A DNA stretch of 64,000 nt from Glaciimonas soli (lineage in GTDB: Bacteria; Pseudomonadota; Gammaproteobacteria; Burkholderiales; Burkholderiaceae_D): NCBI RefSeq assembly GCF_009497155.1, contig NZ_WINI01000001.1:124001-188000 (forward strand), read 5' to 3'. The position numbers were made by a program, and so were the translations under genes. Below the pieces are notes generated by a model. It was not told the DNA's origin, made no database searches, and saw nothing but the letters and a program-made list of their open reading frames with translations. Below, in pieces: positions 36,907-50,541 of the stretch (the first letter of the stretch is position 1; each line of letters begins with the position of its first letter).

Positions 36907-37950
36907 TTAACTAGTAAGGCTGTGATTAATTCGGTAATCACCGGGCGTTTTGCCAGTCCATGATTTGAAGGCGCGGCGAAAACTTCTGACGTCGGTGAAG
37001 CCGAGCTGTTCTGCGATTTCGCTCTGTGTTAAATGGCGGGTTTCGAGCAGGTTTCTGGCTCGACGTTCCTGCATCTGCGCGCGTATTTGCTGAAATGACA
37101 TGCCGCATTGATCGAGGTGGCGCCGCAGTGTTCGCTCCGTAAGGTTGAGGTTTTTTGCGATCTCCGCCATGTTTGGCGGTGATTCCCAGTTGCGGCGAAA
37201 TACACTTTCGATAGATTCAATCAGATCCGGCGTATCGGGATCGCGCATCGCCATGCGTTGCAAGTGTTCGAGAGCCTGACGCTGTGCCAGCGGGTTGTGG
37301 GTGTTGAGCGGCACAGCGAAAAGGGATGCTTCGCAGACTATGCAATTGCGCGGCGCCGAGAATTGCATAGGACAGTTGAATAGTTGCCGGTAGTTAGCGA
37401 CATAGGATGGTGCAGGGTAGTCAAACTCCATACGCTTTAGCAGCGTTCGGGTACCCAGCATCGCTTGCCCTATATTCATCAGGTGTGCCGTGACTTCTTC
37501 GACTAAAAAAGGCGTAATCGCGGCATTGCCCTGGTTACGAAATACTGCCGTGCATTCTTGTTCGGTCGCCATGAACTCTATATCCACCATGGTGCCGCCT
37601 TCCTTGTGATACGTCAGGCAATGCTCAATGGCCTCGCCGAATGTGGAGGAAGTCATCATGGCAAAGCCAACCATGCCGAGCGAGTTGACGTTTTGCTTGC
37701 TGCCGACCAGCAGACCAAGCGGCAATGTCGGCAACAGCATGATCGCCTGCGCGATCATGCCACTGGTCTGGCGGCGTGACAGCCTGAAAGAAGGATCTTC
37801 CAGATCATCGATAGTCAGCCCGAAGCGCGCCAGCATGCGCGCCGGCGCAATGTCATTTTCGGAAAGAACCTGTGTCAGGGTCAGCGCGATGTTGGGAGTA
37901 ATTGACGCTTTGTCATCACTCGTCAGACCGCTTCCTTTGCTGTAACGCAT
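36907..37950 (-). CDS. AraC-family transcriptional regulator
   Basis: A 347-residue regulator with an N-terminal effector domain of the Arabinose_bd/OruR type (about 20-205) and a C-terminal AraC double helix-turn-helix (about 240-340). The latter reads LTERTLRRHLDQCGMSFQQIR, then TQSEIAEQLGFTDVRSFRRAFKSWTGKTPGDYR. The ATG follows GAGGAG at seven bases. It diverges from the oxidase-transporter gene set starting at 38265, which makes it the likely regulator of that eight-gene block. The ligand is unknown. Confidence 0.9.
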   Translation of the reverse strand: MRYSKGSGLTSDDKASITPNIALTLTQVLSENDIAPARMLARFGLTIDDLEDPSFRLSRRQTSGMIAQAIMLLPTLPLGLLVGSKQNVNSLGMVGFAMMTSSTFGEAIEHCLTYHKEGGTMVDIEFMATEQECTAVFRNQGNAAITPFLVEEVTAHLMNIGQAMLGTRTLLKRMEFDYPAPSYVANYRQLFNCPMQFSAPRNCIVCEASLFAVPLNTHNPLAQRQALEHLQRMAMRDPDTPDLIESIESVFRRNWESPPNMAEIAKNLNLTERTLRRHLDQCGMSFQQIRAQMQERRARNLLETRHLTQSEIAEQLGFTDVRSFRRAFKSWTGKTPGDYRINHSLTS

Positions 37951-38264
37951 ACGTCAACTCCTCGTCTCGATTGCCCAGTAATGCTGAGGATAACGTTTTT
38001 TGCAAGGTGCATTTTGGCCGGATATGTTCCCATATTTGCTGTTGCTGTCCTGTCATCCCCAGTACTGAGTACCTATAATTATTTCGAATATATTACATCA
38101 AAAAAATGCCCGTAAGAAATGAACTCGTGCGAATTTGGCGCGTATGTGGCAGGTATTTTGGAGATGATGATAAGACAATAATTTGGATGTTTGCTGTTGC
38201 CCACATAGAGGGAAGCAGCCGATACCCAACCGGAGATGGTGTAGCAGCAATCGAGGAGTGTAGT
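37951..38264. promoter_or_regulatory. Divergent control region of the AraC / oxidase cluster
   Basis: This 314-base region separates the AraC regulator from the probable TTG start of the flavin oxidase. A TATAAT lies at 38074-38079 with a weak -35-like TGTCAT 17 bases upstream (38051-38056). If used, the oxidase leader would be about 180 bases. The frame is open from 38106, but the encoded text there is not conserved-looking. Confidence 0.4.
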
Positions 38265-39587
38265 TTGGATCAAGCAATTTCGGTGCCTCAAGAACGGCGG
38301 ACAGATTGGCGTAACTGGTCCGGATCCGTGCAGTTTTCACCCGCGCAGTATTTCTCACCCGGCTCCATGGACGAATTGAAGACAGTAGTGCGCACTACTG
38401 TCGCCTCCGGGCAATCCTTGCGCGTGGTGGGCAGCGGCCATTCATTTGTGCCGTTGGTAGAAACCGGTGGCTCGCTGCTCTCGCTGCGTAACATGAGCGG
38501 CGTTACCGCAATAGACGCGGGTGTTGCCGAAGTCTGGGCCGGTACCGATCTCAAAACGCTCGGTGAGCAGTTAAGCGCAAGCGGTTGCGCCATGCTGAAT
38601 TTGGGTGACATCAACAAGCAGTCGTTGGCGGGCGCGGTGGGAACCGGTACCCACGGTACCGGGATAGGATTGGGATCAATTTCGACGCAGGTGCGGGCCA
38701 TGACGCTGATAATGCCGAATGGTGAAGCGGTCGACTGTTCGCCGACACAAGAGGCCGATCTTTTTTCCGCGGCGCGCGTAGCGATGGGCAGTCTGGGCGT
38801 CATGGCGAAGATCAAGATCGACGTCGTTCCTGCTTACCGGCTTGAATTGATCAAGCAAACCATGGATCTGGATGTCTGTCTTGACATGGCACCGGCACTG
38901 GCGCAAAAAAATCGTCATTTCGAGTTCTACTGGTTTCCCCACACCCGCAAGACTGTGGCCAAGCTGATGAATCAGACCGATGCGCCGGTTTCCAATCAGG
39001 GTTTGACGAGTGCGATGGAAATGGCGCTGGAAAACGGTGTCTTTGGGTTGCTGTCACGTCTGGTAAGAGCCAAGCCTGCGCGTGCGCCAGGGATTGCGAG
39101 GCTGATCGGCAAACTGGTTGGCGACAAAGCGCCTGTGATGGTAGCCGATTGCCATCGTGCCTTTTCGACCGAGCGCCTGGTGCGCTTCAATGAGATGGAG
39201 TACGAACTCCCGGCCGAACGGGGCCCGGAAGCGCTGCGCGAACTGGCTGCATATATCGAAAAAAATAAAGTGCTGGTACATTTTCCTGTCGAGTACCGTT
39301 ATGTGAAAGGCGATGACATCTGGCTCTCGCCATTCTATGGTCGTGATTCCGCGTCGATTTCGGTGCACCAGTATGTCGGCATGGAACATGATGCTTATTT
39401 TCGTGCTGCCGAAGCGATTTTCCTTAATCATGGCGGCCGCCCGCACTGGGGGAAAATGCATAATCTTAGTGCCAGCCAGCTCGGCAAACTTTATCCGCGC
39501 TGGAACGACTTTATCGCTTTACGCAATCAGATCGATCCTTCAGGCGTTTTCCTCAACCCGTTGCTGAAACGTTTTTTTGAGGGCTAA
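38265..39587 (+). CDS. FAD-dependent aldonolactone-oxidase-like protein
   Basis: A flavoprotein of the D-arabinono-1,4-lactone oxidase / alditol oxidase type, expected to oxidise a sugar lactone or polyol with oxygen or a membrane acceptor. The FAD-binding PCMH domain holds RVVGSGHSFVPL (His59, possible covalent flavin site) and AVGTGTHGTGIGLGSIS; the C-terminus has the family motif RPHWGKMH. I chose TTG 38265 because GAGGAG sits six bases upstream. ATG 38187 and TTG 38106 would extend it by text without homology. It opens the eight-gene block and is followed after seven bases by an MFS gene. Confidence 0.85.
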   Translation: MDQAISVPQERRTDWRNWSGSVQFSPAQYFSPGSMDELKTVVRTTVASGQSLRVVGSGHSFVPLVETGGSLLSLRNMSGVTAIDAGVAEVWAGTDLKTLGEQLSASGCAMLNLGDINKQSLAGAVGTGTHGTGIGLGSISTQVRAMTLIMPNGEAVDCSPTQEADLFSAARVAMGSLGVMAKIKIDVVPAYRLELIKQTMDLDVCLDMAPALAQKNRHFEFYWFPHTRKTVAKLMNQTDAPVSNQGLTSAMEMALENGVFGLLSRLVRAKPARAPGIARLIGKLVGDKAPVMVADCHRAFSTERLVRFNEMEYELPAERGPEALRELAAYIEKNKVLVHFPVEYRYVKGDDIWLSPFYGRDSASISVHQYVGMEHDAYFRAAEAIFLNHGGRPHWGKMHNLSASQLGKLYPRWNDFIALRNQIDPSGVFLNPLLKRFFEG

Positions 39588-39594
39588 GAACAAT

Positions 39595-40806
39595 ATGAAT
39601 AACGTGCATATTTCACCGTGGCAGCGTTGGGGAGTTCTGGCCATTTTTTGCGCAGCACTGATGATGGTGCAGGTGTTCTGGTATGACTTTGCACCGATAT
39701 TGACCTTTGTTTCGGAGCATTACGGCGTCAGCGAATTGTTTGCCAGTCTGCTTATTTTGGTGTTTCCAGTGATGAGCATTCTGGTTTCGGCACCAGCCGG
39801 ACGTTTGATCGATAACCGCGGTTACCGCCTCTCGCTACTTATTGGCACCGGTTTGATGGCTGCCTGCAGCATGTTGCGGGTGATAGATAATTTCTGGGTG
39901 TTGGTGCTGGCACAAACCGGCGTTGCAATCGCCACTCCCTTCATCGTCACGCCGATTACGGTGCTGGCGTCAGACTGGTTCGACGCCCGTGACGAAGCCA
40001 AGATAACCGGCATTTGCGCGATCGCCATCTTTGCAGGTCTGGCGCTGGCGATGACAGTATCGCCGGTGTTGTTCGCGGCTTTCCATCTTGCCGGTTCCAT
40101 GGCAATTCATGCCGCTGCCGCTTTTCTGTTGTTCTTGCTGACGTATTTATTTGTCCATCACCAGCAGCGGCAGTCCGCAACGCCAGCCGCCCAAATCAAA
40201 AAACCAGCACCGCTTAAGGTCAGAGGCAATATCGCATTGCTGGTGATTCTGATTGCCAGTTTCCTGATACAAGGCTGCTTCAATGCCGCGACTACCTGGC
40301 TGGAGGCGGTCTGGAGCGCACGTGGCTTCGGTATCGACGATGCCGGTTTTGCCATGGCTGCGGTGGTGGGAGGAGGGATAGTCGGCGCGATGATCATTCC
40401 GGCCCTGGCTACAAAATCCGGCAGCGTGCTTGGCATGATCACCGCTTGCCTGTTGCCTTCGGCATTACTGATATATCCGCTATTCGCCGCTGGCAGCGTC
40501 ACATGGGGTATCGCTTGCGGTGCGCTGCTCGGATTTTTCTGGCTACCGCTGTTGCCGCTGTCGCTGACCGTGATTGACGAAGCGGTACCAAAGACGCATG
40601 CCGGGATTGCTGCGGGCCTGTTCTGGACGGTGGGGAATGCAGGCGTGCTGGCGATGACCGTTTTGTTCGAACGTATCAAAAACATGCTGGGCTGGCCGCA
40701 AGCGGTGATCATGCTGATCTTGTGCATGCTCGCAGTACTGTGCGTGTTGCTGCGCTTTGCTCCAGCGATGCGGCGTCACCTGCTCGTCCATGTGGGAGAG
40801 GCATGA
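39595..40806 (+). CDS. Major facilitator superfamily transporter
   Basis: A 403-residue inner-membrane transporter with 12 predicted helices. The family features are the loop APAGRLIDNRGYRLSLLIGTG between helices 2 and 3 (the A-like motif) and a central cytoplasmic loop rich in Gln/Lys near residue 195. It starts seven bases after the oxidase stop and overlaps the next gene by four bases, so it is embedded in the operon. It may import the substrate or export a product of the oxidase pathway; substrate unknown. Confidence 0.88.
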   Translation: MNNVHISPWQRWGVLAIFCAALMMVQVFWYDFAPILTFVSEHYGVSELFASLLILVFPVMSILVSAPAGRLIDNRGYRLSLLIGTGLMAACSMLRVIDNFWVLVLAQTGVAIATPFIVTPITVLASDWFDARDEAKITGICAIAIFAGLALAMTVSPVLFAAFHLAGSMAIHAAAAFLLFLLTYLFVHHQQRQSATPAAQIKKPAPLKVRGNIALLVILIASFLIQGCFNAATTWLEAVWSARGFGIDDAGFAMAAVVGGGIVGAMIIPALATKSGSVLGMITACLLPSALLIYPLFAAGSVTWGIACGALLGFFWLPLLPLSLTVIDEAVPKTHAGIAAGLFWTVGNAGVLAMTVLFERIKNMLGWPQAVIMLILCMLAVLCVLLRFAPAMRRHLLVHVGEA

Positions 40807-42086
40807 TGCCGATACGTGTTGACCGCGGCGCACCGCATGATCACTATTTTTCGACGCTCAACGCGGAGTTGCGCAAGCATGGTCCGGCGCACCCTTGTCT
40901 AGTTGTTGATCTTGACCAGCTGGATCACAATCTCGCCATCGTCAGAAAAACGGTTGGTTCAGACGCATCGTTGCGCGTCGTCGCGAAATCACTGCCTTCA
41001 CTTGATTTGCTCGACTATATTCTTAAAGCATCCGGTACCAACCGATTGATGGCGTTTCATCAGCCTTTCCTCAATGAAGAAGCGCAACGGTTTGCCGACG
41101 CTGACATTCTGCTTGGGAAACCGATGCCAGTTCGCGCTGTTGCCGCATTCTATGAACAGTTGCGCGGTGCATTTGACCCCGCACGACAATTGCAGTGGCT
41201 GGTCGATACGCCTGAGCGCCTGGTGCAATATCTGGCGCTTGCTCAGGGGCGCGGGCTTCGTCTGCGTATCAACATCGAACTTGATGTCGGCCTGCATCGT
41301 GGCGGAGTGACGGACAAGCAAGTGCTTTACAACATGCTAAAGCTCATCAAGAGCAATGCCGGACATCTGACATTCGGCGGCTTCATGGGATACGAACCGC
41401 ATATCGCCAAACTGCCACGCGTCTTTGGCACACAAGCGCAATTGCATGCGCAAGTCATGGCTCGGTATCAGGATTTCGTGCAGGTTGCCGAGGCGGTTTT
41501 TCCCGAACTGAGAACGCAGGATTTGATACTGAATGCCGGTGGCAGCATGTCATATCGTCTGTATCAAGGACAGACAATCATCAACGATATATCTGTGGGT
41601 TCCGCGCTGGTTAAACCGACAGATTTCGATTTGCCGCAGTTGACTGAACATCGACCAGCGATGTTTATTGCCACGCCTGTGTTGAAGATGTTGGAAGGAA
41701 CCAAAGTTCCGGGAGCTGATTGGATCGGTCGACTTGGCGTATGGTGGAATCCAAATCGACGCCGCACATACTTTCTTTATGGCGGACATTGGCTGGCGCG
41801 TTACGAATCCCCGCGCGGACTGATCGAACATCCGATGATGGGTTATAGCACCAATCAACAGTTCGTCAATGGTTCTGCGGCGACAGGTTTGTCGCCGGAT
41901 GACTATATCTTTTTGCGACCAACCCAAAGTGAGGCTGTCATGTTGCAATTCGGAGCGCTTGTGATTGTGCGTCAAGGCCGAATTATCGACTACTGGCCTG
42001 TCCTCGGGTCCTCTGATCAAGGGCCACGTCAGGAAAACAGTGCTCCGGTGCAAACTTCGAAATGTGCAGGTGTTCACCATGCTTAA
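40803..42086 (+). CDS. PLP-dependent enzyme, alanine-racemase N-terminal fold (DSD1/D-threonine-aldolase-like)
   Basis: A 427-residue fold-type III PLP enzyme. The N-terminal barrel contains LVVDLDQLDHNLAIVRK and the presumed PLP lysine in RVVAKSLPS (Lys62), followed by INIELDVGLHRGG. The C-terminal part has the late metal/PLP-domain text FLRPTQSEAVMLQFGALVIV. D-threonine aldolase and D-serine dehydratase-like enzymes share this architecture. The start ATG 40803 overlaps the MFS stop by four bases and follows GGAGAGG. Its substrate is probably a D-amino acid or hydroxy amino acid, unproven. Confidence 0.8.
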   Translation: MMPIRVDRGAPHDHYFSTLNAELRKHGPAHPCLVVDLDQLDHNLAIVRKTVGSDASLRVVAKSLPSLDLLDYILKASGTNRLMAFHQPFLNEEAQRFADADILLGKPMPVRAVAAFYEQLRGAFDPARQLQWLVDTPERLVQYLALAQGRGLRLRINIELDVGLHRGGVTDKQVLYNMLKLIKSNAGHLTFGGFMGYEPHIAKLPRVFGTQAQLHAQVMARYQDFVQVAEAVFPELRTQDLILNAGGSMSYRLYQGQTIINDISVGSALVKPTDFDLPQLTEHRPAMFIATPVLKMLEGTKVPGADWIGRLGVWWNPNRRRTYFLYGGHWLARYESPRGLIEHPMMGYSTNQQFVNGSAATGLSPDDYIFLRPTQSEAVMLQFGALVIVRQGRIIDYWPVLGSSDQGPRQENSAPVQTSKCAGVHHA

Positions 42087-43485
42087 TGCCATGCTTAAAA
42101 TCCAAGCTGTTTTTGATGCGATGCATGTCGCCAGTCGCCAAACCCCAATGCCAGACTGGCCTACGCGAGCAGATCGCTTGCGCCGGCTGCGTGCATTGGT
42201 GATGAATAATCGGACTGACATCGCTGCAGCGATTTCGGCCGATTTCGGTAACCGGCCACAGCAGGAGACCGAACTGGCAGAGGTATTTCCCTCGGTCGAA
42301 GGCATAGCGCATGCGCTGCGCCATGGCAAGCGCTGGATGCGCGTGCGGCGGCGCTCCACAGGTCTCTGGTTCAAACCGGCGGCTTCAAAACTGATGCCGC
42401 AACCGTTGGGCGTTGTCGGCATCGTGGTGCCGTGGAATTATCCGTTGATGTTGGCAATAGGTCCTTTGACGGCAGCGTTGGCAGCGGGCAATCGCGTGAT
42501 GCTCAAGCAGTCGGAATACACGCCGCGTTTTGCCGATCTGTTCGCACGGTTGATTGCCGCCAATTTCGCAGCGGACGAGATCGCCGTCGTTAATGGTGAT
42601 GCTGAGGTAGCGCGTGCATTTTCCAATCTACCGTTCGATCACTTGCTGTTCACCGGGTCGACCGCAGTCGGTCGTCACGTGATGCGTGCGGCGAGTGAGC
42701 ATCTCACGCCGGTCACGCTGGAGCTTGGCGGCAAGTCGCCAGCCATTATCGGGCCTGACTGTGATTTCGATAAGGCAGTGGAGCGTATTCTGGTCGGTAA
42801 GCTACTCAATGCCGGGCAGACCTGCATTGCGCCGGATTATGTGTTGGTGCCGGAAGACCAGCTACAGCGCTTTATCGATACCGCAATACGCGTGTTTGGC
42901 ACACTGTATCCAAATCTTGCAAGCAACGCCGACTACACCAGCATCGTTAGCTCACAACATTTCGCGCGGCTGCAATCGTTGATCGATGAAGCCGGGCAGC
43001 GCGGCGCGCAAGTGATCGCGTTGTCGGATGCCGCGCCGGATGTCGCGTCGCGTAGCTTGCCGCCGGTATTGCTGACGCGTGTGAATGACGATATGCGCGT
43101 GATGCAGGAAGAAATTTTCGGACCTATTTTGCCGGTGATGCCTTATGGCTCTCTGGAGCAGGCCATCGCGTATATCAACTCGCATCCGCGCCCACTAGCG
43201 CTGTATTTGTTCGAAAAGAACCATGCAAACATCAATAGGATGATGACCAATACTGTGGCCGGCGGTGTCTCTATCAACGACACCTTGCTGCATATCGCTC
43301 AGGATGATCTGCCGTTCGGTGGTGTTGGTGCCAGCGGTATGGGTGCATATCACGGTGAGTACGGATTCCAGACATTGTCGAAGATGAAGCCGATTTTTCA
43401 TCAGTCTGCGATCAATGGATTGTCGCTGTTCAAGCCGCCATATGGGAGGACATTCAAGATGATGATGAGATTGCTGGTGCGCTGA
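42079..43485 (+). CDS. Aldehyde dehydrogenase, coniferyl-aldehyde-dehydrogenase-like
   Basis: An NAD(P)+-dependent aldehyde dehydrogenase of 468 residues, in the short ALDH3-like branch that includes coniferyl aldehyde dehydrogenase. The catalytic residues are present: Asn120 in VPWNYP, Glu215 in LELGGKS and Cys249 in GQTCIAPDYV. ATG 42079 overlaps the PLP-enzyme gene by eight bases; the open frame reaches back to 41965 inside that gene and is not used. It would oxidise an aldehyde made by the upstream enzymes; the natural aldehyde is unknown. Confidence 0.92.
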   Translation: MLNAMLKIQAVFDAMHVASRQTPMPDWPTRADRLRRLRALVMNNRTDIAAAISADFGNRPQQETELAEVFPSVEGIAHALRHGKRWMRVRRRSTGLWFKPAASKLMPQPLGVVGIVVPWNYPLMLAIGPLTAALAAGNRVMLKQSEYTPRFADLFARLIAANFAADEIAVVNGDAEVARAFSNLPFDHLLFTGSTAVGRHVMRAASEHLTPVTLELGGKSPAIIGPDCDFDKAVERILVGKLLNAGQTCIAPDYVLVPEDQLQRFIDTAIRVFGTLYPNLASNADYTSIVSSQHFARLQSLIDEAGQRGAQVIALSDAAPDVASRSLPPVLLTRVNDDMRVMQEEIFGPILPVMPYGSLEQAIAYINSHPRPLALYLFEKNHANINRMMTNTVAGGVSINDTLLHIAQDDLPFGGVGASGMGAYHGEYGFQTLSKMKPIFHQSAINGLSLFKPPYGRTFKMMMRLLVR

Positions 43486-43595
43486 TAGCGGGCTGGCGTT
43501 TATTGAAATTCGTTGTACCTAATAAATATAAAGACGTAACAAGAAATCGGCATATTTTGACCATTCTGTAATTTGACCTTGCGAGGAGACAATAA

Positions 43596-44972
43596 ATGCA
43601 TCCGATTAAACCTAAAGCATCTGTATTGATGCTATCCGCAGTCTGTGCCTGCTGCCTGCTGACCACACCGTTGTGGGCACAACAAGCCGCAAAACTGGGA
43701 AGTGAATTGACCCCGGTAGGTGCCGAAAAAGCTGGCAACAAAGATGGCACGATTCCAGCCTGGAGTGGTGGTGATGTTACTGCCCCAGCCGGTTACAAGG
43801 CCGGGCAGCCGCGTCCGGATCCATATGCGGCGGACAAGGTCGTGACCACAATCAACGCTGCTAATGTCGATAAATACGCCAGTAAACTGTCGCCGGGCCA
43901 AGTGCAGTTGATCAAGAGTATCAAGGGTTATCGGATGGATGTGTATCCGACTCATCGCTCTTGCGGCTATCCGGATTTCGTGTACCAGCGCACCAAAGAA
44001 AATGTTGGTTTTGCCAAGCTCGCTGCCAATGGCTATGAGCTGGCCGAGGCCAAGACTGCGGGTTATCCGTTCCCGATGCCGACCAGTGGGGTTGAGGCGA
44101 TGTGGAATTTCAAAATGCGCTATCAGGGCGAAGGTTTGACCTGGGCGTATGCGACAGTGGTTCCGCCTAAAGGTGGAAGCGGCATCGGCGAACCGCTGAT
44201 TCAGGAAGACTACATCCTGTTTCCCTTGTCGACTGCGCAGAACAACACGATCACCGGTGCCAAAGGTGTTGAATCCCTGTATCTGAGTCCCTACATCGCG
44301 CCTGCCCAATTTGCCGGTGATGTGACTTTGTCGCACAGTTACATCGGTAAGCCGAATGATATCTGGCTGTACTTCGCCAGTCAGCGTCGGGTGCGGCGCG
44401 CGCCAACTTATTCCTACGATGCACCTATTTTGAATGATGAAAATCTGGAAACCATCGATCAATACACCATGTACAACGGCCCGTTGGATCGTTACGACTA
44501 CAAGCTGGTAGGGAAGAAGGAGATGATCGTTCCCTACAACTGGAACAAGCTTAACTCGGTGACCGCAAAGATTAGCGATGTGGTGCAGCCGACTTTTCTG
44601 AATCGCGATTTGACGCGCTATGAAATTCATCGGGTGTGGGAAGTGGAGGCAACAGTCAAGCAGGGCGCACGTCACACTTTCCCGAAGCGGGTTTTTTATC
44701 TGGACGAGGATTCCTGGCAAGTGCTGGTGCAAGATCTGTATGACGGTCAGGGCAAAGTGCAGCGCGTGATGGAAAGCGGCGTGGTGATGGCGACCGAATT
44801 GCCGGCTTGCGTGCAGGAAGCCTATGCCAGTCATGATCTGTCACTTGGGCGCTACATTGCGGAGCGGATTCCGGCTGGACAAAAACAATCAGACTGGCTG
44901 GCTGGGCGCGATGGACGAGTCAAAGAGTCGATGTTCGAGCCTGACGGCTTGCGCCGTTTTGCTACGCGTTGA
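43596..44972 (+). CDS. DUF1329 exported protein
   Basis: A 458-residue secreted protein with a type I signal peptide (cleavage near LWA-QQ, about residue 28). The mature protein matches DUF1329, described as outer-membrane-lipoprotein-sorting-like because of a resemblance to the LolA/LolB lipid-carrier fold. Typical text includes NKDGTIPAWSGG near the N-terminus and YRMDVYPTHRSCGYPDF. In other proteobacteria DUF1329 occurs with DUF1302 and MMPL genes, as here. A periplasmic carrier of a lipid-like molecule is the likely role, by inference. The ribosome-binding site is GAGGAG. Confidence 0.88.
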   Translation: MHPIKPKASVLMLSAVCACCLLTTPLWAQQAAKLGSELTPVGAEKAGNKDGTIPAWSGGDVTAPAGYKAGQPRPDPYAADKVVTTINAANVDKYASKLSPGQVQLIKSIKGYRMDVYPTHRSCGYPDFVYQRTKENVGFAKLAANGYELAEAKTAGYPFPMPTSGVEAMWNFKMRYQGEGLTWAYATVVPPKGGSGIGEPLIQEDYILFPLSTAQNNTITGAKGVESLYLSPYIAPAQFAGDVTLSHSYIGKPNDIWLYFASQRRVRRAPTYSYDAPILNDENLETIDQYTMYNGPLDRYDYKLVGKKEMIVPYNWNKLNSVTAKISDVVQPTFLNRDLTRYEIHRVWEVEATVKQGARHTFPKRVFYLDEDSWQVLVQDLYDGQGKVQRVMESGVVMATELPACVQEAYASHDLSLGRYIAERIPAGQKQSDWLAGRDGRVKESMFEPDGLRRFATR

Positions 44973-45065
44973 TTGATGTTTGAGGCGGCGACGGCCGGTA
45001 AGTAACGGGTCGTCGCGCATCAACATACTGCGCACAGTTTATTTGCATTCCTGGGGGAGACAACA

Positions 45066-47012
45066 ATGAAAAAAATAGCAAAAAAAATAGCAAAAAAAAG
45101 ACGATCCAGTTTCAAACCGCGCATGATAGTGACACTCGTATTGGGCAGTTCGACGATATTTGGCCATTCAGCGATGGCGGAACAATTCGATCTTGGCAAC
45201 GGTATCAGTGGAAGTTTTGATTCAGCCGTTTCTTTTGGTATGGCAGTGCGTACGTCTAGCCCGAACTGTACCTTCATAGGTCAGGACAATGGTGGTTGTG
45301 CCAGCACCAATCAGGTTGACATTGCGCGCCGCGATCCAACCAACTTTAATCAAACTTATGATCTTGCCAGATTGAATCAGGACAACGGCGATCTCAACTA
45401 TAAAAGCGGGCAATTAACCTCGGCTGCCTTACGCGGTGTACACGATCTGTACATAAAGGGACCGGATGGCTGGAGTGGCCTGTTTCGCGCTGCCTGGTCT
45501 TACGATTTTGCTGTAGATCACACCAGTTATGCGCCTCTGGAACCCGATGCGCGTAGTGCCGCGGTAAGCGACATCCGGATGCTCGATGCCTACGTCAATA
45601 AAGAGTTCGACATAGATGAGCATCCGGTACGGGTGCGGGCTGGTAATCAAGTCATCAGTTGGGGCGAGGATATCTTCATTCCCGGCGGGATTAACTCTAT
45701 CAATGCTATTGATGTGGAGCGTGCGCATAGTCCCGGCGTGCAACTGAAAGAGATTTTTCGCCCGGCGCCTATCTTGTCTCTGAATGCCGAAGTGGCTAAA
45801 GGCTTGAGTGTCGAAGGTTATTATCAGGTTCTTTGGAATGGATATAAATTCGACCCGGTAGGCACCTTTTTCTCGACCAGCGATATTGTCGGACCTGGTT
45901 CCAGCGGCGCTTTCCTGCCGACATCGCTGGTCAATTCCGTTACCGGTCCACTTGGTTTGCCACCGGCACCGCCGGGCACTGTCGGTGATACCGGAACTCG
46001 TATCATCGGCGTTAACCCGGCCACCGGATTGCCGTACAACCAGCGCTTGACAGTCGGCCAACTGGCCGACCCCAGTACCAATCCACTGTACGGCCCATTG
46101 ATCGGAACCGGTAGTGTGATCCCGCGGGGAATGGACCACGATCCCAAAAATAGCGGACAGTTCGGGTTATCGACGCGTTACTCGTTTCCTGACAGCGGCG
46201 ATGAACTGGCGTTTTACTATATTCGCTATAACGACAAGGTGCCGTTTGCCAGCATTCGTGTTGACCGGAACACCACCGCTAATCCGTTCGGCTGGCAGGA
46301 TATCTATCTGGATTACGCGGAAGATCGCAATCTGTTTGGTGTCTCGTACAATACCCGCGCCGGCGATTGGGCGTTTGGCACGGAACTCTCGTTTCGACCA
46401 AAAGAAAGCACGCCAATCGACCCAACCATCGTCATTAATCCGAATGATCCGTACTACTGCAATGCCGATCTGAATCCTGCCAACTATCGTCCTACTGGCT
46501 ACGTCTGTCGCGGTGCTATTGATGAGAAAAAATATCAGTTCCACCTGACCGCGTTGAACATCTTTACCCCGGGTGGCACTTTCGGCGGTTTGCTGCGTGC
46601 CTTGGGTGCGACTGAGGGAACATTTACCGGGGAACTGGCGGCCGCCTTCTATCCCGATCTGAACCTCAATGAAGGCATTCCTTTTTCGGTGACTTCCGAT
46701 TATCGGGTGCCGACCAAATTGTCGACTGGCATGGTGGCGCAGATCGGTGTCAACTATCCAGCGGCATTTGGCGGCCAGGCATCCTACGCGCCAGACCTGG
46801 CATTGTCGTATGGACTCTCGGGCGTTTCTGCCAGCGCTTTGCCTGGCTTCATACAAGGCGCGGGTGCGGTAGTGGTCGGGCTGACGGTGGATTTCAAGAC
46901 CAAGCCAGGGACCAAGATGCGCGTTGATTACACTCACAACTACGGCGGTGGGCAGTCCAACTCGTATCGTGATCGCGACTTTGCCACGTTCAGCTTGACG
47001 ACGTCATTCTGA
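45066..47012 (+). CDS. DUF1302 predicted outer-membrane beta-barrel protein
   Basis: A 648-residue exported protein. The N-terminus has an unusual basic region (KKIAKKIAKKRR), then a hydrophobic core and AMA-EQ cleavage near residue 40. The mature part is rich in alternating beta-strand patterns and ends in LTTSF, the terminal aromatic residue expected of outer-membrane barrels. It matches DUF1302, partner of DUF1329. The first codons contain three A-runs of seven, eight and eight bases within 31 bases. The function may be passage of a hydrophobic molecule across the outer membrane, which is inference. Confidence 0.87.
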   Translation: MKKIAKKIAKKRRSSFKPRMIVTLVLGSSTIFGHSAMAEQFDLGNGISGSFDSAVSFGMAVRTSSPNCTFIGQDNGGCASTNQVDIARRDPTNFNQTYDLARLNQDNGDLNYKSGQLTSAALRGVHDLYIKGPDGWSGLFRAAWSYDFAVDHTSYAPLEPDARSAAVSDIRMLDAYVNKEFDIDEHPVRVRAGNQVISWGEDIFIPGGINSINAIDVERAHSPGVQLKEIFRPAPILSLNAEVAKGLSVEGYYQVLWNGYKFDPVGTFFSTSDIVGPGSSGAFLPTSLVNSVTGPLGLPPAPPGTVGDTGTRIIGVNPATGLPYNQRLTVGQLADPSTNPLYGPLIGTGSVIPRGMDHDPKNSGQFGLSTRYSFPDSGDELAFYYIRYNDKVPFASIRVDRNTTANPFGWQDIYLDYAEDRNLFGVSYNTRAGDWAFGTELSFRPKESTPIDPTIVINPNDPYYCNADLNPANYRPTGYVCRGAIDEKKYQFHLTALNIFTPGGTFGGLLRALGATEGTFTGELAAAFYPDLNLNEGIPFSVTSDYRVPTKLSTGMVAQIGVNYPAAFGGQASYAPDLALSYGLSGVSASALPGFIQGAGAVVVGLTVDFKTKPGTKMRVDYTHNYGGGQSNSYRDRDFATFSLTTSF

Positions 47013-47068
47013 CGCGGATCGAAAGTAGGGCAGAAAGACAGTAGATTAACCAATGATCGGATGCAGGC

Positions 47069-49486
47069 ATGGATGGTTCAACGCAAAATTTTATCAAGGG
47101 TAGCTGGCTGCTGCGTCTGGTGGCAAGGTTGGAATTGACCTTGTTCAAGCGCCGTTTTGCGGTGCTGCTGACGTTCGGCGTATTCACGCTTTGCATGGCA
47201 GTACTGGCGCTAGGTTTACGTATGTCGGCAGGGTTTGAAAAGACGCTGCCGCAGCAACATGAATACATCAAGACGTTTAATCAATACCGGGAAGCACTGT
47301 TCGGCGCCAATCGCCTGATCGTGGTGGTACATGCGCGGCACGGTACGATCTGGAATCCGCCAGTGCTACGGCAATTGCTGGGCGTGACTGAGGCTGTGAA
47401 TTATCTGCAAGGAGTAGATCGCAGCAGCGTTATGTCACTATGGACACCGAATGTTTTTTTTACCGAAATCACGGAGGATGGTTTCAAAGCGATGCCGATT
47501 ACCGGCGGCGACATCATTCCAGAAAAACTGAATCCGCAAGTGATCTCCGACATTCGCGATCGGGTTGCTGCCGGTGGTTATCTCGGCAATCTGGTATCGC
47601 GCGATCAGACCAGTGCGATGGTGTTGGCGGAATTGCAGGATAGCGATCCGCAAACCCGCCAGCCGCTCGATTACCGCGCCTTTAATCAACTGCTGGAAAA
47701 CAAGGTGCGCAAGCATTTCGAAAATGCCGACGTCGAGATCCAGATCATCGGCTTCGCCAAGGCGATTGGCGATATAGGTGAGGAAGCCAGCCGGGTGACG
47801 GCTTTCTTCGGAATCGCCTTGCTGCTGACCGGGCTTTCGGTATATTGGTATTGCCGTTCCTGGCGACTGACACTGCTACCGCTGGTATGTTCCCTCAGTT
47901 CGCTGGTATGGCAGTTCGGCACCTTGAGACTGTTGGGTTTTGGTCTCGATCCGTTAGCGATTCTGGTGCCGTTTCTGGTATTTGCCATCGGCGTTTCGCA
48001 CGGTGTGCAGCAGATTAATTTCATTGTGCGTGAAATCGCCGACGGCAAGAATACCGAACTGGCGGCACGCCATAGTTTCACCGGATTGCTGATACCGGGA
48101 ACGCTGGCGCTGGTGACAGCATTCATCAGCTTCATTACGCTGACCCTGATTCCGATTCCGATGATACGTGAGCTGGCAATTGCGGCCTCGATAGGTGTCG
48201 GCTATAAAATTATTACCAATCTTGTGATGCTGCCGCTTGCCGCTTCGTATTTCAGCTTTTCGCAAGAATACGCGCAACGAGCCATCGGCCGCCGTGAACA
48301 GCACAGCCGCTGGCTCAGCTGGCTGGCACTGGTAGCACGCCCACGCAACGCCTGGATTGTTGTGGGGCTAGGCGTTGCCTTGTTCAGCGTAGCGGTCTGG
48401 CAAAGTCAGGGGCGTCACGTCGGCAGCTTGCAGGCTGGTGCCGACGAGTTGCGTCCCGAGGCACGCTTCAATCGTGACGCCGCCGATATTACGTCGCGGT
48501 TCAATGTCGGGCTGGATTGGCTGACAGTGGTGTTTGAAGTTGCGCCGAATGGCAAGCTGGACGCTTGCGCCCGTCCAGATGCACAGCTTTTCATGGATGA
48601 TTTTGCGCAGCAGATGGGCAGTGTTCCTGGTGTGATGTCGATACGCTCCGTGGCCGATGTACTGAAGGGTATCAATGCCGGACTCAACGAAGGTAATCCG
48701 AAGATGACCACCATCACCCGTGATGCGCGTGGACTGGGATCGCAATTCGGCAGCGCAAATGACCAGCTGCACGGCTTTTCTTCATCGGATTGTCGTGCCC
48801 AAGGTGTCAACCTGTACCTGAGCGATCACAAGGCAACTACCATCAAGGGTGTCGTCGCTGCGGTAGAGAAGTTTCGCCAGGCAAATCATTTGAGCGGAGT
48901 CAATATCCGTCTGGCCAGCGGTAACGCGGGCGTGCTGGCAGCGACCAATGAGGTCCTGGAAAAAAGCGAATTGCCGATGATGCTCTATGTGTACGCCGCC
49001 ATTTTGGTACTGGTGCTGCTGGCTTATCGCGACTGGCGTGCGATGCTGGCGTGTTGTTTGCCGTTGACGGTGGCAACCTGGCTTGGTTATTGGTTCATGA
49101 AAGATCTGAATATTGGCCTGACTGTGGCGACCCTACCGGTCATGGTGCTGGCCACCGGCATCGGCGTCGATTACGCTTTCTATATTTATAACCGCCTGCA
49201 ACTGCATCTGGGAGCGGGCATGAATATCAGCAATGCGGTCGAACGCGCCTTGCATGAAACCGGCGTTGCGACCATATTTACTGCGCTGACTCTGTCGATT
49301 GGCGTCGCCACCTGGTCGTTCTCGCCATTGCAGTTTCAGGCCGACATGGGCAAATTATTAACTTTCATGTTCCTGGTCAATATGGTGATGGCCGTGACCT
49401 TGCTGCCCGCTTTCGCAGTGGTGCTGGAATCCATTTTCCCGCGCCGCGCTGGCGCGGTACACACGTCATCGTTGGTTGCTCATTGA
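47069..49486 (+). CDS. MMPL/RND-family transporter
   Basis: An inner-membrane transporter of 805 residues, with twelve helices and two large periplasmic loops (about 45-230 and 450-630), resembling hopanoid or lipid transporters such as HpnN. The second half has the MMPL motif GIGVDYAFYIYNRL with its membrane aspartate, whereas the matching place in the first half reads IGVSHGVQQIN without an acidic residue. It begins 56 bases after DUF1302; the Ycf48-like gene follows eight bases after its stop. It is likely the energised step of the envelope system. Confidence 0.9.
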   Translation: MDGSTQNFIKGSWLLRLVARLELTLFKRRFAVLLTFGVFTLCMAVLALGLRMSAGFEKTLPQQHEYIKTFNQYREALFGANRLIVVVHARHGTIWNPPVLRQLLGVTEAVNYLQGVDRSSVMSLWTPNVFFTEITEDGFKAMPITGGDIIPEKLNPQVISDIRDRVAAGGYLGNLVSRDQTSAMVLAELQDSDPQTRQPLDYRAFNQLLENKVRKHFENADVEIQIIGFAKAIGDIGEEASRVTAFFGIALLLTGLSVYWYCRSWRLTLLPLVCSLSSLVWQFGTLRLLGFGLDPLAILVPFLVFAIGVSHGVQQINFIVREIADGKNTELAARHSFTGLLIPGTLALVTAFISFITLTLIPIPMIRELAIAASIGVGYKIITNLVMLPLAASYFSFSQEYAQRAIGRREQHSRWLSWLALVARPRNAWIVVGLGVALFSVAVWQSQGRHVGSLQAGADELRPEARFNRDAADITSRFNVGLDWLTVVFEVAPNGKLDACARPDAQLFMDDFAQQMGSVPGVMSIRSVADVLKGINAGLNEGNPKMTTITRDARGLGSQFGSANDQLHGFSSSDCRAQGVNLYLSDHKATTIKGVVAAVEKFRQANHLSGVNIRLASGNAGVLAATNEVLEKSELPMMLYVYAAILVLVLLAYRDWRAMLACCLPLTVATWLGYWFMKDLNIGLTVATLPVMVLATGIGVDYAFYIYNRLQLHLGAGMNISNAVERALHETGVATIFTALTLSIGVATWSFSPLQFQADMGKLLTFMFLVNMVMAVTLLPAFAVVLESIFPRRAGAVHTSSLVAH

Positions 49487-49494
49487 GGAAGCAC

Positions 49495-50541
49495 ATGTCA
49501 TCAATACTCAAAAATTCGCATGGAAATTTTGTTTCGTTTTCTATGGTGTTTTCCGGACTATTTTCCGCATTGATATTCGTTAGTGCAAATGTGGGTGCGG
49601 TCGAGCAGGCGCCATCCGATTGGCCGACTAACCGGCCCGCACAGTTGCAGCAACAAGCTGTCAGTACAGCGTTGCTGGCAGCGACAACCACGGCCAGCGG
49701 CAGGGTGATAGCGGTCGGTGATCATGGCGTGATTTTGCTGTCCGACGACGGCAAAAAATATCGTCAGGCGCACAGCGTACCGACACGTACCATGCTGACC
49801 TCGGTTACTTTTATCGACAATAAAACCGGTTGGGCTGCAGGTCATGACGGCGTAGTGCTTAAAACTGTCGATGGCGGTGAAAACTGGTCATTATTGCGTC
49901 AACAGTACGGCCAGGAACAACCGATATTGTCGATCTGGTTTGCCGATGCCAATCGGGGGCTGGCGGTGGGCTTATTCGGCATGGCCTTGAGCAGCAGCGA
50001 TGGCGGAGTCACATGGAGCGAAATCAAACTGAGCAGCGGCGATGCAGCAGACCGTCATCTGTACCGCATTGTTACTACCGGCACCGGCACCGTATTGATT
50101 ATTGCCGAGGCCGGTACGGTATTTCGATCTGAGGATGGCGGCAAGCATTGGGATGTGATCGATACCGGCGAAAAAGGCTCACTCTGGAGTGCCGTCACGT
50201 TTTCCGATAATGGCGTCAGCACAGTGGTTGCAGTCGGCATGCGCGGCCATATCATCCGCAGCAGCGATGATGGAAAAAGCTGGCAAGCAGTTAGCTCTGG
50301 CACCACCCAATCGCTGACCGATGTGATCCAGCTGTCCGATCATGAACTGGTGGCTGGCGGCATGGGTGGAACCTTGCTGCACAGCGAGGACGGCGGCCGC
50401 CATTTTACGCTGCGGCATAGCGCCGGCGATGAACCCATTACTGCGCTGGCCAAGATTGCAGGTAAAGGAGCAGCAACCCTGATACCGTTTTCGTTGGCTG
50501 GAGTGGTGAGCGTTGATGGCGACACAAAAGCGATCCAATAA
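49495..50541 (+). CDS. Ycf48-like / BNR-repeat exported protein
   Basis: A 348-residue protein with a signal peptide (cleavage near VGA-VEQ, about residue 36) and a seven-bladed beta-propeller made of repeated SxDGGxxW units, for example TVDGGENW, SSDGGVTW, SEDGGKHW and SSDDGKSW. This is the photosynthesis system II assembly factor Ycf48-like family, which in bacteria often follows MMPL genes. ATG 49495 has GAGGA six bases before it. It may assist assembly or act as a periplasmic accessory of the transporter; it closes the eight-gene run. Confidence 0.88.
   Translation: MSSILKNSHGNFVSFSMVFSGLFSALIFVSANVGAVEQAPSDWPTNRPAQLQQQAVSTALLAATTTASGRVIAVGDHGVILLSDDGKKYRQAHSVPTRTMLTSVTFIDNKTGWAAGHDGVVLKTVDGGENWSLLRQQYGQEQPILSIWFADANRGLAVGLFGMALSSSDGGVTWSEIKLSSGDAADRHLYRIVTTGTGTVLIIAEAGTVFRSEDGGKHWDVIDTGEKGSLWSAVTFSDNGVSTVVAVGMRGHIIRSSDDGKSWQAVSSGTTQSLTDVIQLSDHELVAGGMGGTLLHSEDGGRHFTLRHSAGDEPITALAKIAGKGAATLIPFSLAGVVSVDGDTKAIQ

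Follow-up and report, generated by a model that had tools for sequence, protein, structure and literature searches.

We analyzed a 64,000-nucleotide stretch of the Glaciimonas soli genome (contig NZ_WINI01000001.1, positions 124,001 to 188,000; hereafter, the window) that holds a block of nine genes, in which an AraC-family regulator gene diverges from eight packed genes encoding an FAD-linked oxidase, an MFS carrier, a pyridoxal phosphate (PLP) enzyme, an aldehyde dehydrogenase (ALDH), and four envelope proteins. We propose that the block is probably one operon for the utilization of sphingoid bases (sphingosine, sphinganine, or phytosphingosine) under an SphR-type AraC activator. Homology identifies the parts of the block; its substrate and its direction of transport are inferred, and the transport may be import or export. 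A previous interpretation made from the letters alone (the sequence-only reading) had stated that no function was established for this combination, which overlooks SphR and SphBCD of Pseudomonas aeruginosa (PMC3900636, PMC5150637, PMC11893366), the AmeABCD system (PMC6394551), and the DUF1302 and DUF1329 proteins of Pseudomonas putida (PMC10866462); its general idea that a lipophilic compound is taken up and oxidized was right. The families are known, and what looks new, judging from the gene content, is that both halves lie in one gene run and that the enzymes appear to be cytosolic. None of the 10 open-licence PMC papers found to contain the term DUF1302 was among the sphingosine papers listed.

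In P. aeruginosa, SphR is described as being encoded divergently from sphA, binding sphingosine, and activating sphA, sphBCD, and the ceramidase gene (PMC3900636). The sphBCD products are described as having cbb3-type cytochrome, D-arabinono-1,4-lactone oxidase, and alanine racemase N-terminal domains (PMC5150637), and sphBC deletion is reported to cause sphingosine accumulation (PMC11893366). The window block likewise encodes together an AraC regulator, a lactone-oxidase-like flavoenzyme, and a PLP enzyme of the alanine-racemase-N/threonine-aldolase type. The SphC-like oxidase gene (38265 to 39587, forward strand) belongs to the D-arabinono-1,4-lactone oxidase family (PF04030/PF01565), and its product scores 412.8 bits against TIGR01679, above the cut-off of 292.25. 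Its start is uncertain: a TTG at 38265 has GAGGAG upstream, and an ATG at 38187 would give a protein of 466 residues, similar to the 465-residue frame of the Collimonas-type oxidase introduced below. The SphD-like PLP enzyme has the D-threonine aldolase fold (PF01168), and its gene (40803 to 42086, forward strand) starts within an ATGA shared with the MFS gene.

To place these two genes, we compared 105 loci carrying the PLP gene, 25 from sampled genomes and 80 that were the best of 560 named relatives; the named loci are mostly from Pseudomonas, and some genomes occur twice among the 105. The oxidase gene is present in 96 of the 105 loci, which makes the two genes a conserved pair (hereafter, the pair). 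A short CxxCH protein gene adjoins the pair in 59 of the 80 named loci, and the two examples that were examined (loci L036 and L113) are Cytochrome_CBB3 proteins. Identity to the Pseudomonas-type proteins is 52-57% for the PLP enzyme; for the oxidase, it is 34-42% to the 12 aligned sphC-type proteins from outside Collimonas (40-42% for those of family f55, taken as Pseudomonadaceae). P. aeruginosa itself is not among the best 80 of 560 named relatives, and the sample says nothing about that species; the tie to sphBCD is through other named Pseudomonas species, the AraC neighbor, and the published domain descriptions.

The regulator gene (36907 to 37950, reverse strand; Arabinose_bd and HTH_18) encodes a probable homologue of the sphingosine-responsive activator SphR. 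When the window protein was compared with six f55 genomes, its best match in all six was the AraC gene adjoining the pair, with 174.1-198.7 bits versus at most 150.3 for the next match. Identity is 84-85% to the Collimonas-type copy and 32-35% to the pair-adjoining f55 genes, and an AraC gene scoring at least 150 bits against that of the window occurs in 36 of the 80 named loci, including a Collimonas fungivorans contig (L057). The regulator match beside the pair, the conservation of the pair, its frequent CxxCH neighbor, and the published sphBCD domains all argue for the sphingoid-base operon.

The PLP enzyme is closest to aldolases. By family profile, its best matches are the D-3-hydroxyaspartate and D-threonine aldolases 6qkb, 7yqa, and 4v15 (54.9, 52.2, and 43.1 bits), with dehydratases at 24.8 bits. 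A structural model (mean predicted local distance difference test [pLDDT] score of 86.6) has the D-threonine aldolase 4v15 as its best fold match (Z of 34.7), with aldolases spanning 33.6 to 34.7, an uncharacterized "ala racemase-like" protein at 31.6, and entries named alanine racemase at 27.5 or below. Identity to these three aldolases is only 18-21%, while the fold and an aligned lysine are alike; this lysine, located by alignment with 6qkb and presumably the residue that binds PLP, is conserved in every protein of two alignments (16 of 16 and 22 of 22). The predicted fold thus places the enzyme among the aldolases and dehydratases, and its sequence favors the aldolases.

Next in the run is an ALDH3-like gene (42079 to 43485, forward strand; PF00171) whose predicted substrate is a long-chain (fatty) aldehyde. 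The top solved relatives of its product are the steroid aldehyde dehydrogenase 9nxl, 6k0z, and human fatty aldehyde dehydrogenase (FALDH; 4qgk), and its best NCBIfam equivalog, MdlD, scores below its cut-off. A close relative directly follows the pair in two of three Variovorax loci (L092 and L109; 786 and 790 bits), and none follows it in the third (L117). Twenty-six of the 80 named loci have a gene for a different class of ALDH that diverges from the CxxCH gene; one of these was checked. Together, the aldolases as best match by profile and fold, FALDH among the top ALDH relatives, and the Variovorax ALDH genes after the pair suggest that these enzymes serve sphingoid-base catabolism. The MFS inner-membrane carrier gene (39595 to 40806, forward strand; PF07690) precedes the PLP gene, and a search with the window protein found relatives in only the two Collimonas-type loci, L031 and L057, of the 105. 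As a separate observation, L113:2502-5229, beside a Pseudomonas locus with sphBCD and envelope genes, carries an ALDH gene (462 bits to that of the window) and another Ala_racemase_N gene.

The block itself is genuine, and its arrangement exceeds chance. The sequence-only reading had an AraC gene diverging from eight packed forward-strand genes, and all nine were found on the strands given; with its gene starts, we reproduced the gaps and overlaps of 7, -4, -8, 110, 93, 56, and 8 bases. Pfam confirmed its domain calls, including lactone-oxidase-like, racemase-fold PLP, and ALDH3-like, with PF12625 and PF12833 in the regulator, then ALO and FAD_binding_4, MFS_1, Ala_racemase_N, and Aldedh, and DUF1329, DUF1302, MMPL, and PSII_BNR/Ycf48 in the second half. 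Its extent of 38265 to 50541 covers the eight genes, while the AraC gene lies before 38265. The notion of one packed block was borne out by locus L031 of genome G007, which we term Collimonas-type solely because it resembles the named contig L057: the order from AraC to Ycf48 is conserved there, with the same nine genes at 71-91% protein identity. By mechanical open reading frame coordinates, the three large gaps are shorter in L031 (69, 65, and 23 bases), and the MMPL and Ycf48 genes overlap. Contig L057, from the C. fungivorans metagenome-assembled genome (MAG) RYN_544, keeps the same order until it ends inside the DUF1302 gene. The window block is flanked by glyoxalase, thioesterase, and lactamase-type genes upstream and DoxX downstream; in L031, its upstream neighbors are GH129-like, phosphodiesterase, and hydrolase genes, and a SnoaL_2 gene lies on the downstream side. 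None of the window neighbors that were tried (TetR, lactamase-type, thioesterase, and DoxX) had a match in the L031 stretch, and a relative of the lactamase-type gene lies about 2.3 Mb away from the block in G007. Since the flanks differ while the nine genes are kept, it is the block that forms the conserved unit.

The second half of the block resembles AmeABCD of Castellaniella defragrans, which is described as a tetrapartite RND exporter with DUF1302, DUF1329, COG4447/Ycf48-like, and HAE3-like pump components (PMC6394551). In the window, these are a DUF1329 predicted periplasmic LolA-like protein (AmeB-like; 43596 to 44972; PF07044 and PF17131), a DUF1302 predicted outer-membrane barrel with a C-terminal Phe (AmeA-like; 45066 to 47012; PF06980), an MMPL/RND inner-membrane pump (AmeD-like; 47069 to 49486; PF03176), and a Ycf48-like beta-propeller predicted to be periplasmic (AmeC-like; 49495 to 50541; PF14870), all encoded on the forward strand. 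The assignments follow the same source, in which AmeA is a DUF1302 protein, AmeB belongs to the DUF1329/LolA superfamily, and AmeC is a COG4447 protein related to photosystem II (PSII) stability/assembly factors (PMC6394551). The AlphaFold model of the DUF1302 protein is strand-rich and of low confidence (pLDDT of 52.6), too poor for a fold search, so the barrel call is based on the family and on AmeA. All four component families are thus encoded together in both systems, but the window order is DUF1329-DUF1302-MMPL-Ycf48, whereas ameABC lies upstream of ameD, and the best NCBIfam model for the window pump, TIGR00921 (HAE3), gives 173.3 bits, below its cut-off of 351.9. AmeABCD sits with monoterpene genes, whereas the window set adjoins sphCD-type genes.

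Deletion of ameABCD is reported to reduce growth on monoterpene hydrocarbons and to increase Nile Red in cells treated with carbonyl cyanide m-chlorophenylhydrazone (PMC6394551). In P. putida, PP_0765/PP_0766 and PP_2018/PP_2019 are described as all being needed on Tween20 and as a proposed transport system (PMC10866462). There too, as described, DUF1302 and DUF1329 proteins share a phenotype with a periplasmic protein and a transporter, and Tween20 is a long-chain amphiphile; unlike in the window, the genes lie in two places by their locus numbers, and the account as available gives no link to an oxidase-aldolase pair. Envelope sets of this kind therefore handle amphiphiles and hydrocarbons.

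Full envelope sets beside the pair were found at L031 and at two further loci. In L086, a Nevskiaceae MAG, the order is DUF1329-DUF1302-MMPL-Ycf48-oxidase-PLP gene on one strand, and in L113, a Pseudomonas sp., sphBCD-type genes and a short-chain dehydrogenase gene are followed by the four envelope genes. Partial sets reach contig ends in L057 and, on the opposite strand, in L112 (a Nevskia MAG). Collimonas pratensis and C. fungivorans are both reported to have SphR and ceramidase by BLAST (PMC5150637). The sets beside the pair in L086, L113, and in part L112, the role of such proteins on monoterpenes and Tween20, and the presence of SphR and ceramidase in two Collimonas species are further grounds for the operon reading.

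Two groups of observations weigh against a single sphingoid-base operon, one concerning the linkage of its halves and the other its chemistry and control. As to linkage, DUF1302 and DUF1329 genes occur together in only 15 of the 105 loci. Relatives of the window DUF1302 at E values up to 1e-40 occur in 6 of 398 phylum-wide genomes, its own included, and in none of the four that lie outside its family was the pair found within about 10 kb of the relative; in one of the four (G644), a weaker DUF1302 does adjoin the pair (L041). Another of the four, genome G441 (probably P. nicosulfuronedens), has an AmeABCD-like set beside methylamine-dehydrogenase-type light and heavy chain genes (L137:6424-17477), about 43 kb from its own pair, which by gene content appears to be another amine-oxidizing module paired with an AmeABCD-like envelope system. 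The G. soli genome itself encodes a second Ycf48-MMPL-DUF1329-DUF1302 set (G000:C28, about 585.8-592.6 kb; L035:3839-10606), and no oxidase or PLP gene match was found in the 18 kb around it. The six f55 genomes have 6-16 DUF1302 genes each, so a DUF1302 neighbor there can be due to chance. The sequence-only reading had held that rare adjacency across genomes would speak against a single module; in our comparison, the halves do adjoin in only a minority of loci, while they do so in several lineages and in the same order in the Collimonas-type genome.

These findings leave some room for two adjacent modules, in one transcript or two, in which a general Ame-type exporter that shields the membrane from hydrophobic compounds of any kind, and lacks specificity for the substrate, was recruited next to an SphCD-type catabolic unit. 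The envelope sets associated with an amine dehydrogenase and with neither gene of the pair, the small share of loci with both DUF genes, and the abundance of DUF1302 in f55 favor this explanation, as does the described action of AmeABCD in monoterpene tolerance (PMC6394551). We nevertheless regard it as rather unlikely, since the nine-gene block is kept with short gaps in the Collimonas-type genome, where the flanks that were tried are unmatched, and since in three trees the proteins nearest to those of the window after Collimonas come from Nevskiaceae sets adjoining the pair. The tree sample is biased toward aldolase loci, the Nevskiaceae loci having been found via the aldolase, and only the DUF1302 tree unites window, Collimonas, and Nevskiaceae in one group (83/90, not starred). 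The L113 set falls in another clade with the second set of the window genome, and the DUF1329 proteins of L066- and L041-type Pseudomonas loci fall in a third. Since envelope sets beside pairs are spread over clades, recruitment looks repeated.

As to chemistry and control, the window differs from SphBCD in having neither the cytochrome c SphB nor Tat (twin-arginine translocation) signals, and in its inserted MFS carrier; P. aeruginosa has the SphA porin, while the window has the ALDH3-like enzyme and the envelope set in the same gene run. No cytochrome domain was found by Pfam in the nine window proteins, and no CxxCH protein lies beside the pair in L031 or L057. A twin-arginine followed by a hydrophobic segment was found neither at the start of the window oxidase and PLP enzyme nor in the Collimonas-type oxidases. 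In contrast, almost all proteins of the pair from cytochrome-bearing loci begin with such a signal. Among the 95 loci with both genes, 66 have a CxxCH protein and two Tat signals, 12 have two signals and no CxxCH protein, 10 have neither, and 7 are mixed. These calls come from a simple home-made pattern and from reading, with no use of SignalP; the pattern calls the L031 PLP protein "Tat" via an upstream frame and misses some oxidases with a visible RRQLL. Since they have no Tat signals, the window enzymes would be placed in the cytosol. In family f91, from another class, a signal-free pair lies behind a different MFS gene in all seven genomes (two by Pfam, the rest by similarity), and the window MFS protein as a query at E 1e-6 found none of these carriers, which are only distantly related; the cytosolic form with a carrier may therefore have arisen more than once.

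The PLP enzyme raises further doubts. D-threo-3-hydroxyaspartate dehydratase (Z of 32.9) and D-serine dehydratase (32.6) come near the aldolases in fold, and since they fit nearly as well, the fold by itself does not decide for cleavage, which makes our confidence slightly lower. In addition, the His-x-Asp/Cys metal ligands of D-threonine aldolases, which in AxDTA are His347/Asp349, are replaced by Gln-x-Glu; these positions were set by structural end offsets, assuming no intervening gap, together with H351A/C353A entry titles. The motif at these positions is QxE in 94 of the 105 loci, IxE in 7, VxE in 2, LxL in 1, and absent in 1. With Gln-x-Glu this widespread and the Glu kept in 103 loci, the PLP enzymes form a distinct subgroup, and catalysis by SphD-type enzymes is possibly metal-free. 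In the window enzyme, Gln-x-Glu lies within the motif RPTQSE near the C-terminus.

In P. aeruginosa, SphD is described as dispensable and direct action of SphC on sphingosine as unproven (PMC11893366). The NCBIfam models nearest to the regulator are QhpR (150.6), GliR, and CypR, each below its cut-off, and the best candidate for an SphR operator, matching at 14 of 18 positions, is equaled in 3% of 300 mononucleotide shuffles and is unconvincing. Neutral ceramidase (PF04734) was not found in the window genome or in seven others including G007, a search in which no control genome gave a match; the lack of a match in G007 conflicts with what is reported for Collimonas (PMC5150637).

Several of these points would also suit another long-chain amino alcohol or amphiphile, such as an amino lipid of bacterial or plant origin, which the same oxidase, PLP, and dehydrogenase reactions would handle. 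The low identities of the regulator and oxidase to the f55 genes and the unmatched SphR operator speak for such a substrate, and orthology in these families is described as hard to judge (PMC11893366). On the other hand, the PLP enzyme is closer to the Pseudomonas type, and the SphR regulon has the same combination of regulator, oxidase, and PLP enzyme, which makes a different substrate rather unlikely. Sugar-lactone (ascorbate-like) or amino-acid metabolism, by an aldonolactone oxidase with a racemase, aldolase, or dehydratase, is suggested by the Pfam and NCBIfam names but is very unlikely, since TIGR01679 describes a general FAD oxidoreductase subfamily while the sugar-lactone model scores 251 against a cut-off of 396.8, aldolases and dehydratases outrank the named alanine racemases in fold, and the genes keep company with lipid-type envelope genes and a FALDH-like enzyme. 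It is equally far-fetched that the first four genes make a lipid-like product for export: the pump is HAE3-like and AmeABCD is described as an exporter (PMC6394551), yet none of the nine proteins has a synthase, acyltransferase, or glycosyltransferase domain by Pfam, and P. putida genes of these families are described as needed to use Tween20 (PMC10866462).

In the sphingoid-base operon that we favor, the DUF1302 protein in the outer membrane, the DUF1329 and Ycf48-like proteins in the periplasm, and the MMPL protein in the inner membrane would carry the amphiphile across the envelope, for uptake and/or relief by efflux, and the base would reach the cytosol with the aid of the MFS carrier. There, the oxidase would convert the C1 alcohol to an acid. 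C1 oxidation of a D-erythro sphingoid base would shift the Cahn-Ingold-Prelog priorities and so give a D-type 3-hydroxy-amino acid, which would suit a D-aldolase; this is textbook reasoning and not a computed result. The ALDH3-like enzyme would yield a fatty acid for beta-oxidation. Compared with Pseudomonas, with its Tat-exported SphC and cytochrome c SphB, the enzymes would be shifted from the periplasm to the cytosol. SphB and SphC are described as needed in sphingosine metabolism, with their product undefined (PMC11893366). An aldehyde dehydrogenase encoded alongside the SphC- and SphD-like enzymes points to a long-chain aldehyde as the product, and the same operon ties the pathway to a DUF1302/DUF1329 envelope system whose cargo range is poorly known, which makes both questions testable together. 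Enzymes that lack Tat signals and stay in the cytosol may also prove simpler to produce and assay than their periplasmic counterparts.

Sphingosine represents the backbone lipid type of fungal, plant, and animal membranes, and Collimonas is known for feeding on fungi. A more specific version of the proposal, which we put forward tentatively as a possibility, is a self-contained cytosolic sphingoid-base pathway with a dedicated tetrapartite MMPL/DUF1302/DUF1329/Ycf48 importer, used by Collimonas relatives to feed on fungal sphingolipids. Separately, the stretch immediately upstream of the regulator gene in L031 (L031:150-4888) encodes a GH129-like glycosidase, a type I phosphodiesterase, and an alpha/beta hydrolase; it is speculation that these could act on glycosylated sphingolipids.

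The divergent intergenic region (37951 to 38264, given on the forward strand) is a possible operator region, as judged by alignment with L031/L057 and a promoter scan. A box, TGGCCGGATATGTTC, at 38015-38029 is identical in the window and the two Collimonas-type loci and lies upstream of a shared TATAAT; the AraC regulator may use it as its operator. The -10-like TATAAT belongs to a promoter-like site at 38050-38079, in a scan that gave 10 sites versus 10.9 expected by shuffling. The published SphR operator consists of two TGNCCSNNRNNSNCC half-sites 6-8 bp apart, and an operator score of at least 15 was found upstream in 39 of 59 cytochrome-bearing loci among the best 80 of 560 named relatives. 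With a matrix built from those loci, the intergenic site scores 8.9 bits and ranks third in the window, whereas every training site reaches at least 17.8; the Collimonas-type sites come 42nd and 154th. The site also differs between the two scoring schemes. The SphR operator match is weak and was dropped as evidence.

The PLP gene is uncommon, occurring in 23 of the 398 phylum-wide genomes and in 5 of 300 genomes of the order, its own included in both. No oxidase match at E 1e-60 was found in four of four same-genus genomes, and by this comparison the block is accessory. Its insertion site relative to congeners was not definable: the left-flank gene had no match at E 1e-40 in the same four genomes, and the same-genus relatives of the right-flank pirin are only 38% identical. 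G+C content in 2-kb steps is 0.50-0.55 at 30-56 kb of the window versus 0.46-0.53 over 1-30 kb, and this rise, together with the oxidase missing from all four congeners, fits horizontal gain.

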